Source: a virus. Taken from it: a stretch of 64,000 nt of DNA. Below, one piece after another: positions 3,413-10,085 of the stretch. The stretch's first letter is position 1, and the number at the start of each line of letters is the position of its first letter. The stretch lies in IMG/VR virus record IMGVR_UViG_3300046777_001387, positions 1 through 64,000 of that record, one strand, 5' to 3'. A program made the position numbers and the translations under genes. The notes beneath the pieces were generated by a model. It saw only the letters and a list, made by a program, of their open reading frames with translations. It was not told the DNA's origin and did not search any database.

Positions 3413-4171
3413 GTGTCTAAGAAGAAATACCCTTCAGCCAATACAGAAGCTGAAGTAGAAACAATCAAGCCGACGCCGCCCAGAGTAAAGCCTAGTGAGC
3501 TCAAGACCTTTGAGCCGCTAACCGAAAATCAGAAGTTGTTCTTTGAGGCTTATGGTCGCGGCGACTACTTCATTATGCTTACAGGTTCAGCGGGAACCGG
3601 TAAATCGTTCATTGCCTGCTACAAGGCAATCCAAGAAGTCTACGACAAGAACAGTTCCTTCAAGCGAGTTGTAATTGTTCGTAGCGCAGTACAGTCTCGC
3701 GACATCGGTTTCACTCCGGGTTCTCTGGAAGAAAAGATGTCACTGTACGAGCAGCCTTATATGCAGATCTTCCACACGCTGTTCAATCGCCGTGATGCAT
3801 ATGAAGGGCTGAAAGATGCCGGTCGCATCGAATTCATTTCAACCTCGTTCATTCGTGGTATGAGTTTCGATGACTCGATCATTATCGTAGATGAATGCCA
3901 GAACATGAACTTCGAAGAACTGGCTACGATTATGACTCGTGTCGGCTATCGTTCTAAGATTATTTTCTGCGGTGACTATCGTCAAACTGACTTGTACCGC
4001 CGCACAGGCGACAAGAGTGGACTACTGAAATTTCATCATGTCGCAAGACTGATGTCTTCCTTCACTAGCATCGAGTTCACTCCAGATGATATTGTTCGCT
4101 CAAGCCTAGTGAAAGACTTCTTGCTTGCAGTTGAAAAATATGAGAACCAAAACAATAGTGAAATCTCTTGA
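3413..4171 (+). CDS. phoH: PhoH-like P-loop ATPase
   Basis: A 252-residue protein of the PhoH family, starting at GTG 3413 after AGAGAGGA. It has a Walker A motif GSAGTGKS (residues 58-65), a Walker B region IIIVDECQN (156-164) and the downstream FCGDYRQTD motif, all in the order expected for the N-terminal helicase-like domain of PhoH. PhoH proteins are widespread in T4-type phages. They bind and hydrolyse ATP, and RNA-related or stress roles are proposed but unsettled. The first 35 residues are a charged, Pro-rich extension. The gene directly abuts its upstream neighbour. A consensus sigma70 promoter overlaps its stop codon. Confidence 0.92.
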   Translation: MSKKKYPSANTEAEVETIKPTPPRVKPSELKTFEPLTENQKLFFEAYGRGDYFIMLTGSAGTGKSFIACYKAIQEVYDKNSSFKRVVIVRSAVQSRDIGFTPGSLEEKMSLYEQPYMQIFHTLFNRRDAYEGLKDAGRIEFISTSFIRGMSFDDSIIIVDECQNMNFEELATIMTRVGYRSKIIFCGDYRQTDLYRRTGDKSGLLKFHHVARLMSSFTSIEFTPDDIVRSSLVKDFLLAVEKYENQNNSEIS

Positions 4172-4316: not shown

Positions 4317-4954
4317 TCATTGACTGTAACAACAGTAGAACTGACCTTTGTAATATCGCTGTAAAGCATAACATTGACAAGTGTGTCTATAGCAATAATC
4401 CTCCTCCGGTGGGTCATCTGCATCCGTACACTATGATCTATGATATGCTTTTCGGTGGTATGCGATACCTTCCGATCACTATCGGTGAGATTGGTATTCT
4501 TAAGAACGGAAGCATGAAGGCATGGCGAGACTACTTTGTCAATGCTACGCTGTACGGTTGGGACTTTGATCTTAACCTCATTAATAATGCTCTGATTGAG
4601 AATATTGATCGGTCTAACTATCACTACATGAACGTACATGATGTGAATAGTATTGATCGTGGGCTGAGTCGCTTCAATGGGAAGTATGACTTTATCATTG
4701 ACGACTCAGATCACCATGCTGAGTGGGCATATAATATCATGTCGGTGGTGCATAAGTATCTACGGACTGGTGGTGTTTTTGTTATTGAAGATGTTCAGGA
4801 TCCAGAGCCTTACGATCGGTTGATTGGTAATCACGCAGCTAAAAAGTATTTCAACTCAATGACGCTGGTTGATTGTCAGCACAACCTTAAGAAGTCTTGG
4901 GATAACGATAAATTTATTGTAATGTATAGGAACGACGTACCCTCCGATGTTTAA
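4295..4954 (+). CDS. Class I SAM-dependent methyltransferase-like protein
   Basis: About 219 residues from ATG 4295. The pattern GEIGILKNGSMKAWRDYF, then YGWDFD, then GKYDFIIDDSDHHAEW and TGGVFVIEDVQ matches the Rossmann methyltransferase layout seen in macrocin O-methyltransferase and CmcI-like proteins, where an Asp-Asp-(Gly/Ser)-x-His segment follows strand 4. The usual glycine-rich motif I is altered (GEIG). Substrate is unknown; a sugar, glycan or small molecule is possible. It overlaps the preceding small gene by 22 bp and the next gene by 8 bp, which implies one transcript. Confidence 0.7.
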   Translation: MANINKLVIDCNNSRTDLCNIAVKHNIDKCVYSNNPPPVGHLHPYTMIYDMLFGGMRYLPITIGEIGILKNGSMKAWRDYFVNATLYGWDFDLNLINNALIENIDRSNYHYMNVHDVNSIDRGLSRFNGKYDFIIDDSDHHAEWAYNIMSVVHKYLRTGGVFVIEDVQDPEPYDRLIGNHAAKKYFNSMTLVDCQHNLKKSWDNDKFIVMYRNDVPSDV

Positions 4955-5618
4955 TCATATTCACCATGACTTTCCCAAGCTTCTTCAGGAAAACGTTGAT
5001 GGCACTCGATGCTATGTGACGCCGGATGGGAAGAAGTATCCGTCAGTCACTACGGTTCTTTCTGACTATGGTAAGGAAGAACTAAATGCTTGGAAGGCGA
5101 GGGTGGGTGAGAAGGAGGCAGCGCGTGTTTCGCGAAAGGCGACCACTCGGGGAACTGCAGTTCACGCTGCCATTGAGCACTATCTCCATAACAAGGATAT
5201 CTCTGAGCTAGAGATGCTTCCTAACGTTAAGGAGATGTTTGTTAAGATGAAGCAGGAACTGGTGAAGCTTAACAATATTCACTGCCTTGAGACTAAGCTG
5301 TTTTCGCACGAACTCCGGTTGGCTGGGACGGTTGACTGTATTGCTGAGCACAATGGAGTTCTATCGGTCATTGACTTCAAGACTTCGCGTCGGCTGAAGA
5401 AGAAGGAATCTATTCAGCACTACTTTATGCAGGGTGCTGCATATGCCCATATGTTCCGGGAAATGACTAACCTAAATATTCAACAGGTTGTCATCCTCAT
5501 CGGAGTAGAGGGAGTTCCTTTCTGCCAGACGATGAAAGTTGATCCGAATGACCATATCGATGAACTTAAGAAGTATATTACACAATACGAAAATCGTCTT
5601 TTCGAAGGAGTTGCATAA
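4947..5618 (+). CDS. Cas4/RecB-like PD-(D/E)XK exonuclease
   Basis: A 223-residue nuclease. It shows the RG-T-x-VH motif (RGTAVHAAIEHYL), the AGTVDCIAEH strand carrying the metal-binding Asp, and VIDFKTSRR (Asp-x-Lys), then a helix with QGAAYAHMF. These are the ordered motifs of the RecB/Cas4 nuclease superfamily found in phages. The four cysteines of the Fe-S cluster form of Cas4 are not apparent, so it is more like the cluster-free phage exonucleases. It probably processes DNA ends in recombination or host DNA breakdown. The gene overlaps both neighbours. Confidence 0.85.
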   Translation: MFNHIHHDFPKLLQENVDGTRCYVTPDGKKYPSVTTVLSDYGKEELNAWKARVGEKEAARVSRKATTRGTAVHAAIEHYLHNKDISELEMLPNVKEMFVKMKQELVKLNNIHCLETKLFSHELRLAGTVDCIAEHNGVLSVIDFKTSRRLKKKESIQHYFMQGAAYAHMFREMTNLNIQQVVILIGVEGVPFCQTMKVDPNDHIDELKKYITQYENRLFEGVA

Positions 5619-6143: not shown

Positions 6144-6362
6144 ATGATATTTGCTATGTTTCTGTTATGGATCAGCAGTATGCTGATGATTGAAAGAATG
6201 AAGCAAAGGGATAATAAGCGAAGGATTGAACTTGAGCGAAGGTATGAAGAGGTTCTCGATCAGAAAAGAAAACAGATCGAAGCTTTCCAGCCAACGCTAG
6301 AGTCTAAGTCTAGATGCGTATTTTCTGCTGACAGAAATGTAGAGTATATCTTTAAGGAATAA
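6144..6362 (+). CDS. Small membrane/coiled-coil protein
   Basis: 72 residues: a short hydrophobic N-terminus (MIFAMFLLWISSMLMI) followed by a charged helix (KRRIELERRYEEVLDQKRKQ). The arrangement resembles small phage membrane proteins such as spanin- or holin-accessory peptides, but there is no specific match. The stop codon lies at the 5' edge of the tmRNA gene. Confidence 0.65.
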   Translation: MIFAMFLLWISSMLMIERMKQRDNKRRIELERRYEEVLDQKRKQIEAFQPTLESKSRCVFSADRNVEYIFKE

Positions 6363-6612
6363 TGGTAGTAAACTCTTAGCTAAAGGTGTTTCGGACGCGG
6401 GTGCGATTCCCGCCACCTCCACCACTACGGGGGTGACCAGTTTTGACGGGACAAGTAATAACCTCGGAGCTACCAGTGAGGCGACTGACTTAATCAGCGC
6501 AAACAAAGTAAACGCAAACGATGATGTTTACGACATGGCTCTAGCTGCTTAATAGCAGTCTAGGTTCCTGAGTTTTCGGTGGGTTTTCTTGGAAACAGAA
6601 TAAACCCACCTC
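6363..6612 (+). ncRNA. ssrA: Circularly permuted two-piece tmRNA
   Basis: The 3' (acceptor) piece comes first, at about 6363-6424. It has TTTCGGACGCGGG, a T-arm GCGGG-TGCGATT-CCCGC and the end CACCTCC-A-CCA. Only four bases (CTAC) follow before the 5' (coding) piece starts at 6429 with GGGGGTGACCAG and TTTTGACGGG. The 7-bp acceptor stem GGGGGTG/CACCTCC forms across this junction with one G-U pair. The resume codon GCA is at 6514, and the tag reads ANDDVYDMALAA ending in tandem stops TAA TAG (6550-6555) inside the typical CTGC-TTAATA-GCAG hairpin. A 9-bp stem at 6578-6610 probably closes the coding piece. The outer ends are approximate. The RNA rescues stalled ribosomes and tags the nascent protein; SmpB is not seen here. 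Confidence 0.93.
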
Positions 6613-6627
6613 TACTTAAGGTGCAAA

Positions 6628-6810
6628 ATGACAGAAACACACAAACGCACACTCGTCCGCGCTGCCTGTTGGCGATTAGTTGCTACGCTTATCACTGCTA
6701 TCTGGACTGGTCTTGAGGGTGCTATCGTTATCAATATCTTCATGACACTTGCGCACTATATTCATGAGCGGCTGTGGCTCAAGATTCGTTGGGGCAAAGA
6801 GCAAGTCTGA
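6628..6810 (+). CDS. DUF2061 family membrane protein
   Basis: A 60-residue protein matching DUF2061 (PF09834) in length and pattern: an N-terminal KRTLVRAACWRLVATLITA helix, a second hydrophobic helix (GAIVINIFMTLAHYIHERLW) and the closing HERLWLKIRWG. The family is a small predicted inner-membrane protein of unknown function, common in proteobacteria and in some phages. It follows the tmRNA by 15 bp, with AAGGTG as ribosome-binding site. Confidence 0.88.
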   Translation: MTETHKRTLVRAACWRLVATLITAIWTGLEGAIVINIFMTLAHYIHERLWLKIRWGKEQV

Positions 6811-6818
6811 GTCTGAAG

Positions 6819-7580
6819 ATGGATGTTCGTGTTTATCAGGTGTACTTCCGAGAGGATCAGCTGAGTCATCTTGACTCAGCCTTCGTTCCGTTCGCTAATC
6901 TCGAGAATACCAATCCAGAACTCAGAGAGTATCCGCTACTGAAGAGCCTGTACTCTATGCAACAGCCTGAGTATTGGGGTATGGTTAGCTGGCGATGGAA
7001 AGAGAAGACTGCGCTCGAAGGGCGAATGTTCCTTGATTGGATTGCAGATAACGCAGGATACGATGTGTATCACATCAATCCTTTCCCCGAAGTAGCAGCT
7101 AATCATCCAAACATCTTCCACCATGGTGAAGTTGTACACAAGGGAATGATCCCTTGCGTGGAAAGACTTATGCGGCTCATGGGACTAGATCGCATAGATC
7201 TACTGCACTCTAGTTTCCCAGTACGATACAACAGCACGTGCCATTTTTATATCGGCAACTCTAGCTTCTGGCAAGGATGGATGGAGTTTGCTGCTGAGTG
7301 TAATTCTGTTGTGCAGAAAGATGAGCTTCTATATGACTTCATGCACGTGCAGCGTAGTCGCCACAGAAAAGAACACTTGATCAACTATTCGTTTGTGATG
7401 GAACGATTGGTAAACCTGTATATGATCATCAACAAGGTTTCGGTCAAGTATTACCCATACGAAAAGTTAAACAACACTAAAGACACAAAGAAACGCGCTG
7501 AAGAGTTGCAAGTGATTGCTCTCAAAGAGTCTGACGTGTTCTACAAGACTCCAGACCGCAATAAGCCATTATGGTGGTGA
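6819..7580 (+). CDS. Conserved protein, glycan-biosynthesis-like
   Basis: 253 residues from ATG 6819; an earlier in-frame start would overlap the preceding gene. The N-terminus (VRVYQVYFREDQLSHLDSAF, then PFANLENTNPELREYP) and the internal GYDVYHINPFPE and YIGNSSFWQGWMEF segments resemble an uncharacterised family often found with glycosyltransferases in polysaccharide clusters. A role in modifying host or phage glycans is inferred from that resemblance only. It precedes the cell-wall hydrolase gene by 4 bp. Confidence 0.55.
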   Translation: MDVRVYQVYFREDQLSHLDSAFVPFANLENTNPELREYPLLKSLYSMQQPEYWGMVSWRWKEKTALEGRMFLDWIADNAGYDVYHINPFPEVAANHPNIFHHGEVVHKGMIPCVERLMRLMGLDRIDLLHSSFPVRYNSTCHFYIGNSSFWQGWMEFAAECNSVVQKDELLYDFMHVQRSRHRKEHLINYSFVMERLVNLYMIINKVSVKYYPYEKLNNTKDTKKRAEELQVIALKESDVFYKTPDRNKPLWW

Positions 7581-7584
7581 TGTC

Positions 7585-8148
7585 ATGAAGACATATGCGA
7601 TAATAACCTTACTGTTCATTACTAGTGTTCTCTCAGTCTATGCGTATATGCAGAACAAGTACAACAACCTAGAGAAGCAGTACCAACAGTATCAGTCGCA
7701 TATGCAGCAAGAAATGAGCGACCTAGAAATTGCATTCAACGAAGCAATGATGCGTGCACGCAAGTCACCATACGTCCAAAGAGAAGTTGAGTGCCTTGCA
7801 AAGAACATTTATTTTGAAGCTGCACACGAGCCGTATGCTGGTAAGATGGCAGTGGCTACGGTTACAAAGAACCGAGTCCAGTCTAACAAGTACCCAAAGA
7901 CTTTCTGTGCTGTAATTTATCAGGGGTGCCAGTTCTCTTGGACTTGTCAGCCGGGAAAGAAAGTTGTATTGAACAGCAGTGCTTACAGAGCCGCGAAGCG
8001 AGTTGCTGAAGAAGTTTTGATTATGGGCAAGCGATCAGCTATAATAGACAGTTCTGTGCTCTTTTATCATGCTGACTATGTCAGCCCTAGCTGGTCCAAA
8101 ACAAAAGAGGTCGTTGTAAAAATTGGAACTCATGTATTCTATAGGTGA
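7585..8148 (+). CDS. SleB-like cell-wall hydrolase with signal anchor
   Basis: 188 residues from ATG 7585. An N-terminal hydrophobic segment (YAIITLLFITSVLSVYAYM) is followed by a coiled coil of about 40 residues and then a Hydrolase_2/SleB-type domain (PF07486): CLAKNIYFEAAHEP with the catalytic Glu, then MAVATVTKNRV, CAVIYQGCQFSW and the C-terminal VLFYHADYVSPSW. The family consists of peptidoglycan-degrading transglycosylases. A membrane-anchored form fits a signal-anchor-release endolysin, but a host-envelope remodelling role is also possible. No obvious holin lies next to it, although several tiny membrane proteins are near. Confidence 0.83.
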   Translation: MKTYAIITLLFITSVLSVYAYMQNKYNNLEKQYQQYQSHMQQEMSDLEIAFNEAMMRARKSPYVQREVECLAKNIYFEAAHEPYAGKMAVATVTKNRVQSNKYPKTFCAVIYQGCQFSWTCQPGKKVVLNSSAYRAAKRVAEEVLIMGKRSAIIDSSVLFYHADYVSPSWSKTKEVVVKIGTHVFYR

Positions 8149-8377: not shown

Positions 8378-8478
8378 ATAAGTTTGTAATAATAGTGGGT
8401 GGCATCGAAGCATTGATGACACTTTCTATCATGATCCTTTCTATTGTGGCACTGGTGAAATACATTTGGTTCGTATGA
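8374..8478 (+). CDS. 34-residue membrane peptide between gp33 and gp59
   Basis: ATG 8374 overlaps the gp33 stop (ATGA) and the stop TGA 8476-8478 overlaps the gp59 start (ATGA). The peptide (MNKFVIIVGGIEALMTLSIM and 14 more residues) is one hydrophobic transmembrane helix. The double 4-bp overlap strongly suggests a real, translationally coupled gene. The function is unknown. Confidence 0.65.
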   Translation: MNKFVIIVGGIEALMTLSIMILSIVALVKYIWFV

Positions 8479-9092
8479 ACGGGCATGATCTTTGCGCTAC
8501 TTACTTGGCTGTGAAGCTTCACTTCACAAACGAGAAGTACAACTTCTTTCTCGGCAGCGGAAAGGCAAAGATTGGAGTTGATGCGTTTCAAAAACGTCGC
8601 GACAAGTATATGTTCCATAAGCTTGCGCGGAAGCTGAGTGATGATGAGGTTGTACCGTTTCTGGTTGCAAACTTTATCAATGATGGGGAAACTTGGACGA
8701 GGTCGCTTCTAGAAGATGAGTCGCAAAAGACTTACACTGAATGGAAGCGTAAGGTTGAGTCGCTATCGTACATTTTTGAAAATGATCTGGTGAAGCTGCT
8801 AGAAACCGACAACGATGAACTACCAAAGCACAAGGTTCTAGAGCAGAAGTTCACTAGCAACGATGGTGACTATCCAGAGGTTTTGCAGATGTACATGCAG
8901 AAAGATATCTCTCTGGAAACTATGGTGATCTTTAACAACCTCATGGGTTGTTTCAAGCGTTGGGATAGAGAGCTAAGTGATACGGTCATCTATCCTAAAA
9001 TTGCAATGAGAGTTAGGAAGTATGGATCATTCTTGTCGCTTGATCTTGACAAGATGAAAGGGATTGTCAAAAAACATTTGACAAAGGAGTAG
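8475..9092 (+). CDS. 59: gp59-like helicase loader
   Basis: 205 residues, close to the 217 of T4 gp59. The hallmark AFQKRRDKYMFHKLARKL is followed by a helical region and the LETMVIFNNLMGCFKRWD segment corresponding to the C-terminal helical domain. gp59 loads the gp41 helicase onto gp32-coated ssDNA at forks and recombination intermediates. Start ATG 8475 overlaps the small peptide stop. The position directly upstream of gp32 matches T4. Confidence 0.87.
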   Translation: MNGHDLCATYLAVKLHFTNEKYNFFLGSGKAKIGVDAFQKRRDKYMFHKLARKLSDDEVVPFLVANFINDGETWTRSLLEDESQKTYTEWKRKVESLSYIFENDLVKLLETDNDELPKHKVLEQKFTSNDGDYPEVLQMYMQKDISLETMVIFNNLMGCFKRWDRELSDTVIYPKIAMRVRKYGSFLSLDLDKMKGIVKKHLTKE

Positions 9093-9176: not shown

Positions 9177-10085
9177 ATGGATTTCGCAAGTCTTAAGAAG
9201 AACAATTCGTCGCTCGATAAGCTGAAGAAGGCAATGGAGTCGTCGAAGGTTTCAACGGGTGGTCGTCGTGAGGACGATCGTTTCTGGCAGCCTGAAGTCG
9301 ATAAGACGGGCAACGGTTATGCAATCGTTCGCTTTCTCGACGCACCGGCAGTTGACGGTGAAGATGGTCTGCCTTGGGTTCAGATTTTCTCGCACGGTTT
9401 TCAGGGTCCCGGTGGCTGGTACATCGAGAACTCGCTGACCACTCTCGGTCAGAAGGATCCTGTTTCTGAGCTCAACACTAAGCTGTGGAACTCTGGCGTT
9501 GAAGCGAACAAGGAAATTGCTCGCAAGCAGAAGCGCAAGCTGACATATATCAGCAACATTCTAGTTGTTTCTGATCCGAAGCATCCTGAGAACGAAGGTA
9601 AGATCTTCCTCTATAAGTTTGGCAAGAAGATCTACGACAAGATTCAGGAAAAGCTTTCGCCTGAGTTCGAGGACGAGAAGCCGGTCAATCCTTTCGACTT
9701 CTGGAAGGGTGCCAACTTCAAGATCAAGATCCGTAACGTTGAAGGTTATCGTAACTACGACAAGTCGGAGTTTGATGAGCCGTCGGCAGTTCTGGGTGGC
9801 GACGATGCCAAGATCGAGAAGCTTTGGAAGTCTGCTTATTCGCTGAAGGAATTCCTCAAGGCTGAAAACTTCAAGAGCTATGATGAACTGAAGGCAAAGC
9901 TCGACAAGGTTCTGGGTGCTGGTGGTGCTGCGGCAACTGGTGCTAAGAAGATTGATGAGGAAGAACTTCCTTGGGATGAGCCGAAGGCAGCTGCTCCTGC
10001 AAAGCCCAAGGTTACTGCTGAAACGGTGACCGTGGACGATGAGGATGATGACCTGTCGTTCTTTAAGAAGCTGACAGAAGAGTAA
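9177..10085 (+). CDS. 32: gp32 single-stranded DNA-binding protein
   Basis: 302 residues (T4 gp32 has 301). The N-terminal basic segment (FASLKKNNSSLDKLKKAM) is the cooperativity domain that resembles the T4 LAST-type motif. The OB-fold core follows (DRFWQPEVDKTGNGYAIVRF, LPWVQIFSHGFQGPGGWYIE, FLYKFGKKIYDKI, NPFDFWKGANFKIKI). The tail is acidic (DDEDDDLSFFKKLTEE), as needed to bind partner proteins. The Cys/His zinc ligands of T4 gp32 are absent, as in cyanophage versions. It coats ssDNA in replication, repair and recombination. It has its own promoter and terminator. Confidence 0.95.
   Translation: MDFASLKKNNSSLDKLKKAMESSKVSTGGRREDDRFWQPEVDKTGNGYAIVRFLDAPAVDGEDGLPWVQIFSHGFQGPGGWYIENSLTTLGQKDPVSELNTKLWNSGVEANKEIARKQKRKLTYISNILVVSDPKHPENEGKIFLYKFGKKIYDKIQEKLSPEFEDEKPVNPFDFWKGANFKIKIRNVEGYRNYDKSEFDEPSAVLGGDDAKIEKLWKSAYSLKEFLKAENFKSYDELKAKLDKVLGAGGAAATGAKKIDEEELPWDEPKAAAPAKPKVTAETVTVDDEDDDLSFFKKLTEE

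Follow-up and report, generated by a model that had tools for sequence, protein, structure and literature searches.

A beta-type permuted tmRNA gene with a four-nucleotide spacer, conserved in position among related T4-like phages

The stretch of DNA analysed here (64,000 nucleotides, hereafter the window) comes from a virus record of 83,696 bases and carries, at approximately 6363-6613 on the + strand, a permuted tmRNA gene borne by a T4-like phage. With a probability of roughly 80%, it is a functional beta-type two-piece tmRNA gene that keeps its position across a clade of T4-like phages, a reading in which structure, conservation, spacer and tag are matters of observation, while we infer how the RNA is processed and charged and what the phage gains from it. 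A single RNase P cut followed by exonuclease trimming would turn the transcript into a two-piece tmRNA that works with the SmpB and the Clp protease of the host. Phage-borne two-piece tmRNA is already known from phage Melnitz (2022), and a 4-nt spacer has precedents in both hosts and phages. What is new here is the fixed slot in a T4-like clade, the covarying helices, the finding of no SmpB, the RNase P-like letters of the spacer and the extended tags. A ribosome-rescue RNA is thus a conserved and structurally constrained gene of a T4-like clade, kept at a fixed place, rather than an accidental capture.

Both the dedicated gene finder and the covariance models recognized the gene. ARAGORN called a permuted tmRNA at 6332-6643 (+ strand) with the tag ANDDVYDMALAA followed by two stops. 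The Rfam model RF04321 (tmRNA_permuted) matched 6364-6552 over its full length with 142.8 bits (cut-off 47, E 4.5e-28), and RF01850 (beta_tmRNA) matched 6297-6613 with 110.5 bits (cut-off 84). The sequence-only reading had proposed a phage-borne permuted tmRNA at this place and had named a covariance-model search as a check; the proposal is confirmed by ARAGORN and by these two models.

The acceptor piece (6363-6424, + strand) lies upstream of the coding piece and is supported by ARAGORN, RF04321, RF01850 and covariation. It comprises the arm of a GGTAG helix, the T-arm, the 3' strand CACCTCC, A73 and an encoded CCA. The sequence runs ...CACCTCCACCA up to 6424, then CTAC (6425-6428), then GGGGGTG from 6429, exactly as the sequence-only reading had described for the end of the acceptor piece, the spacer and the start of the coding piece. 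The acceptor stem that it had seen across the junction is complete as well, with 7 of 7 pairs, and the combined junction and T-arm pattern did not occur in 100 dinucleotide shuffles of the window. G 6431 stands opposite T 6418 as the G3-U70 pair, and A73 is at 6421. The G3-U70 pair is the alanine identity mark and, together with A73, is expected for charging with alanine. The coding piece (6429-6610, + strand; ARAGORN, Rfam) contains the acceptor 5' strand GGGGGTG, the resume region, the tag frame and a terminal helix, GGTGGGTTT/AAACCCACC, found at 6578-6610 by folding and by the beta_tmRNA alignment. According to the model alignment the piece probably ends at about 6610, beyond the terminal helix, which could play an additional part in the formation of the 3' end. 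The tag frame (6514-6555, + strand; coding part 183-224 of the ARAGORN gene) starts at the resume codon GCA, encodes ANDDVYDMALAA and ends with TAA TAG. An open frame of 72 codons (6144-6362) stops immediately upstream of the acceptor piece; the clade yielded no protein similar to its product, so that it may be either a gene with little conservation or a chance frame.

The gene is of the beta type. The Rfam alpha, beta and cyano tmRNA models form one clan of which only the best is retained, and RF01850 was retained over the alpha and cyano models for the window gene. The permutation had been likened to that of alphaproteobacterial hosts, a comparison which is not supported; the alpha_tmRNA type (RF01849) was rejected as it was not the best of the clan and RF01850 was reported in its place. 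Most of the tested relatives also match the beta model. In Burkholderiales, clear permuted genes were found in a minority of genomes (8 of 200 sampled, above 130 bits). The T-arm of the window gene (6397-6413, + strand; stem GCGGG/CCCGC) has the loop TGCGATT, in which, at 6402-6408, a G occupies the position where U55 is expected. This U55 is normally a pseudouridine. About one third of the phage tmRNAs sampled have the T-loop form TGCGA, with G55, whereas it was not seen in any of about 60 beta-host tmRNAs, whose loops read TTCGA. Sampled host genes, mostly alphaproteobacterial, have a T-loop unlike that of the window.

The genomic setting is T4-like, with PhoH, a PDDEXK exonuclease, a cell-wall hydrolase, gp59, gp32 and baseplate genes. 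On the + strand, the conserved upstream neighbours are a PhoH-like gene (3413-4171; Pfam PF02562) and a PDDEXK exonuclease gene (4947-5618; PF12705, phrog_298). The conserved downstream neighbour is an endolysin-like cell-wall hydrolase gene (7516-8148; PF07486, phrog_938), accompanied by those of the gp59 helicase loader (8466-9092; PF08993, phrog_269) and the gp32 single-stranded DNA binding protein (9177-10085; PF08804, phrog_224), all five being supported by synteny in addition. The order PhoH, PDDEXK, tmRNA, hydrolase, gp59, gp32, on one strand, was found in about 20 viral contigs as far as each of them extends, and at least part of it is common to three relatives with long spacers (L202, L203 and L209). 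A comparison with 50,697 phage records brought up nothing closely related to the tmRNA region, nor was a close relative found among isolated phages or plasmids.

Selection on the RNA itself can be read from its helices. In 19 distinct relatives, 23 pairs distributed over four helices are 100% paired, and both sides have changed in 8 of these pairs (42 cells), two of them in the acceptor stem. Sliding the partner by 1-3 columns lowered pairing to 47-65%, and the covariation score exceeded all 500 shuffles and every slid control. Maintained pairing together with covariation is taken as selection on function. Moreover, the tag frame and its stop codon are intact in all clade members.

How such a gene would be matured is suggested by the letters of the spacer. 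Read as an RNase P leader, CTAC, which is predicted to be removed, has C at -4, U at -3, A at -2 and C at -1. C(-4) and A(-2) each occur in 21 of 22 clade genes, and every one of the 22 has a pyrimidine at -1, although the members are related and their spacer letters are therefore not independent. Spacers of 5 nt in the clade (TCGAC, TCTAC, ACTAC, TCTAT) still have C at -4, and across the clade C(-4) and A(-2) are in register with G1 and not with CCA. For the E. coli RNase P, A(-2) and C(-4) are positive determinants, AU, AA or AC at -2 and -1 are optimal, and inhibition occurs when the leader pairs with the 3' RCCA (PMC9433436); the substrate on which the E. coli enzyme showed these preferences was tRNA-Met rather than a closed loop of 8 nt. 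The clade spacer may represent a minimal RNase P leader, whose C(-4), A(-2) and pyrimidine(-1) match the E. coli optimum. The precursor would fold into the seven-pair acceptor stem closed by the 8-nt loop ACCA-CUAC, and RNase P would cut once, before G1 (6429), with CUAC as 5' leader. The same CUAC, left on the acceptor piece, would form a 4-nt 3' trailer that host exonucleases trim to CCA, and the two pieces would remain base-paired and be charged with alanine through G3-U70. When spacers were folded, the long ones mostly gave a hairpin that extends the acceptor stem, whereas with those of 4 nt 6-8 nt remained as an open loop, which in the window is ACCA-CUAC.

A different origin of the short spacer, which we regard as unlikely, is genome compaction or deletion only, CTAC being removed by another enzyme, for instance a 3' endonuclease that cuts first after CCA, without any tuning to RNase P. 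Spacer length does change easily, as two near-identical phage tmRNAs (L183, 2955-3266, and L202, 1469-1828) have spacers of 4 and 52 nt, and in betaproteobacterial hosts most genes with a 4-nt spacer carry G at -2, so that A(-2) is not required. Compaction accounts less well for the register that C(-4) and A(-2) keep with G1 and not with CCA, and for the lengths seen in viral contigs, where a scan for spacers of 3-6 nt found dozens that cluster at 3-5 nt with a mode of 4. The pair L183 and L202 makes the question of one cut directly testable, and so small a spacer offers a clean natural substrate to learn how one nuclease cut makes a two-piece RNA from a permuted precursor. The longer spacer of L202 includes a ACCATGGGGGTCAC stretch that resembles a second copy of the junction.

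The spacer to be removed is indeed CTAC, 4 nt in length, but the claim that it is far shorter than in host genes is contradicted by at least 41 bacterial genes with exactly 4 nt. These were found by a pattern scan of bacterial genomes restricted to spacers of 1-9 nt, in which 41 of the 43 genes called by ARAGORN had exactly 4 nt; they come mostly from Rhodocyclaceae/Accumulibacter and several read CTAC. Since the scans were confined to short gaps and to a CTCCACCA end, they show that short spacers exist and not how frequent they are. In samples not selected by spacer, 6 of 13 permuted genes of the Rhodocyclaceae-like family had 4 nt, and a phylum-wide host sample had mostly 22-57 nt with one spacer of 5 nt. 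A short spacer confined to phages was rejected on the 4-nt spacers of bacterial genomes, the unselected family sample included. With precedents in hosts, viral contigs and cyanophages, the short spacer is a recurrent form and is not peculiar to the window phage. Placed on a weakly supported tree, the short or long state requires at least 14 changes as compared with about 60 when labels are shuffled, which suggests that it is inherited but not fixed. The tree rests on a tmRNA of about 250 nt, its deep nodes have weak support, and no donor is named from it. The Rhodocyclaceae/Accumulibacter genes resemble the window gene in matching RF01850, in their GGGGGTG/CACCTCC stem and in their 4-nt spacer, some of which are exactly CTAC, but they differ by 10-residue tags (ANDERFALAA and similar) and by a spacer that mostly has G(-2). 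One Rhodocyclaceae-like permuted tmRNA with a 4-nt spacer (L256, 409-444) was found in a contig labelled Mycobacteriaceae, which is probably misbinned. As to the encoded CCA, it is absent from 14 of 38 long-spacer host genes (including L339, L341, L369-L374 and L398) and present in 7 of 7 short-spacer host genes of the unselected samples.

The tag ANDDVYDMALAA ends in ALAA, as the sequence-only reading had noted. The acidic body also claimed for it is only mildly unusual, since its net charge is -3 and that of beta-host tags -1 to -2; a clearer distinction lies in the 2 residues inserted before ALAA. Almost all of the parsed tags of beta hosts have 10 residues of the form AND-xx-[FY]-xxAA, whereas nearly all clade tags contain 2-4 inserted residues before the LAA end (DM, EM, DL, TPM, DQEL). 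In the window tag, a short acidic linker joins an ANDxxY part for adaptor binding to the ALAA degron, a layout with which tagged proteins should still reach the host Clp protease. SmpB was not found in the 83.7-kb record or in 19 relatives, two of which are 152 and 161 kb long; in the phage of the window it could lie outside the 83.7-kb fragment. Host SmpB is thus presumably used, and the paired pieces would bind it to rescue stalled ribosomes. The most likely role would be to keep ribosome rescue running while phage nucleases generate mRNAs devoid of stop codons.

It has also to be considered whether the phage tmRNA is a modified competitor, displacing that of the host and altering the fate of tagged proteins through a longer tag, in which a linker of 2-4 residues separates the adaptor contact from LAA. 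Such a role would agree with the insertions of nearly all clade tags in comparison with the 10-residue tags of beta hosts, and engineered DAS+4 degrons use a comparable spacer to separate the SspB site from the ClpX site (PMC8138137). Nevertheless, a SENY linker in front of an ALAA end left degradation by ClpXP/SspB unchanged in vitro (PMC8512704), from which a modest effect is expected for the linker of the clade, and 12-residue tags are also found in other phages and many alpha hosts. Altogether we consider a competitor improbable, and ribosome rescue with host SmpB and Clp protease remains the preferred role.

On a broader scale, and at somewhat less than even odds, short-spacer permuted tmRNAs may form a distinct processing class that was reached several times in phages and bacteria. 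Its spacer would be a minimal RNase P leader, one cut separating the pieces and leaving a trailer of a size suited to exonucleases, while in the long-spacer class a hairpin would prolong the acceptor stem. The short-spacer class would be tied to the lengthened tag in the clade of the window phage. If so, the tmRNA is no passenger but a core gene adapted to the phage.

It is very improbable that the gene is a captured host gene or a functionless, drifting pseudogene, left for instance by imprecise excision, which has been suggested for ssrA fragments in other phages: gene exchange with a temperate phage is the origin that the Melnitz paper suggests for its ssrA (PMC9004378), but the present clade is strongly diverged and yet keeps all scored pairs with compensatory changes, its locus is syntenic across many phages, its tag frames and stops are intact, and the drifting passenger was rejected on synteny and covariation.

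Melnitz, a phage of Methylophilales, is a published precedent: a two-piece tmRNA was described in this related myophage in 2022, in a paper that regards 53 of 133 unique phage tmRNA structures as probable two-piece forms (PMC9004378). The 2025 database update from which RF04321 originates comprises 11,946 permuted genes overall, and the unique tmRNAs that it lists for bacteriophages number 79 (PMC11915505). Like the phage of the window, Melnitz is a T4-like (Kyanoviridae) myophage with a permuted tmRNA, and it is among the isolated phages nearest to the baseplate wedge protein of the window (39.8%, with pelagiphage HTVC008M at 37.7%). Unlike the window gene, with its 4 nt, it has a spacer of about 142 nt and the tag ANDNYVPVDYALAA, and its ssrA was placed with Alphaproteobacteria (PMC9004378) whereas the window gene is of the beta type.

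Other isolated phages carry permuted tmRNAs as well. Those of Stenotrophomonas phages Marzo and DLP_6 and Xanthomonas phage XacN1 are of the beta type with related acceptor or coding pieces, but their spacers are long (about 57, 31 and 114 nt, respectively) and their neighbours also differ from those of the window. The beta-type permuted tmRNAs of XacN1 (AP018399.1; L337, 1473-1893) and DLP_6 (KU682439.2; L338, 1451-1794) are unannotated in their records. Finally, the cyanophages S-CAM1, S-CAM3 and S-SSM7 are isolated T4-like phages which share with the window phage a permuted tmRNA with a very short junction, and differ in that theirs is of the cyano type (RF01851), with long tags and no encoded CCA. 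These three genes (L429 in S-CAM1, L430 in S-SSM7 and L431 in S-CAM3, at about 444-795) are likewise unannotated, and in S-SSM7 and S-CAM3 the gene overlaps with possibly spurious calls of a hypothetical protein.
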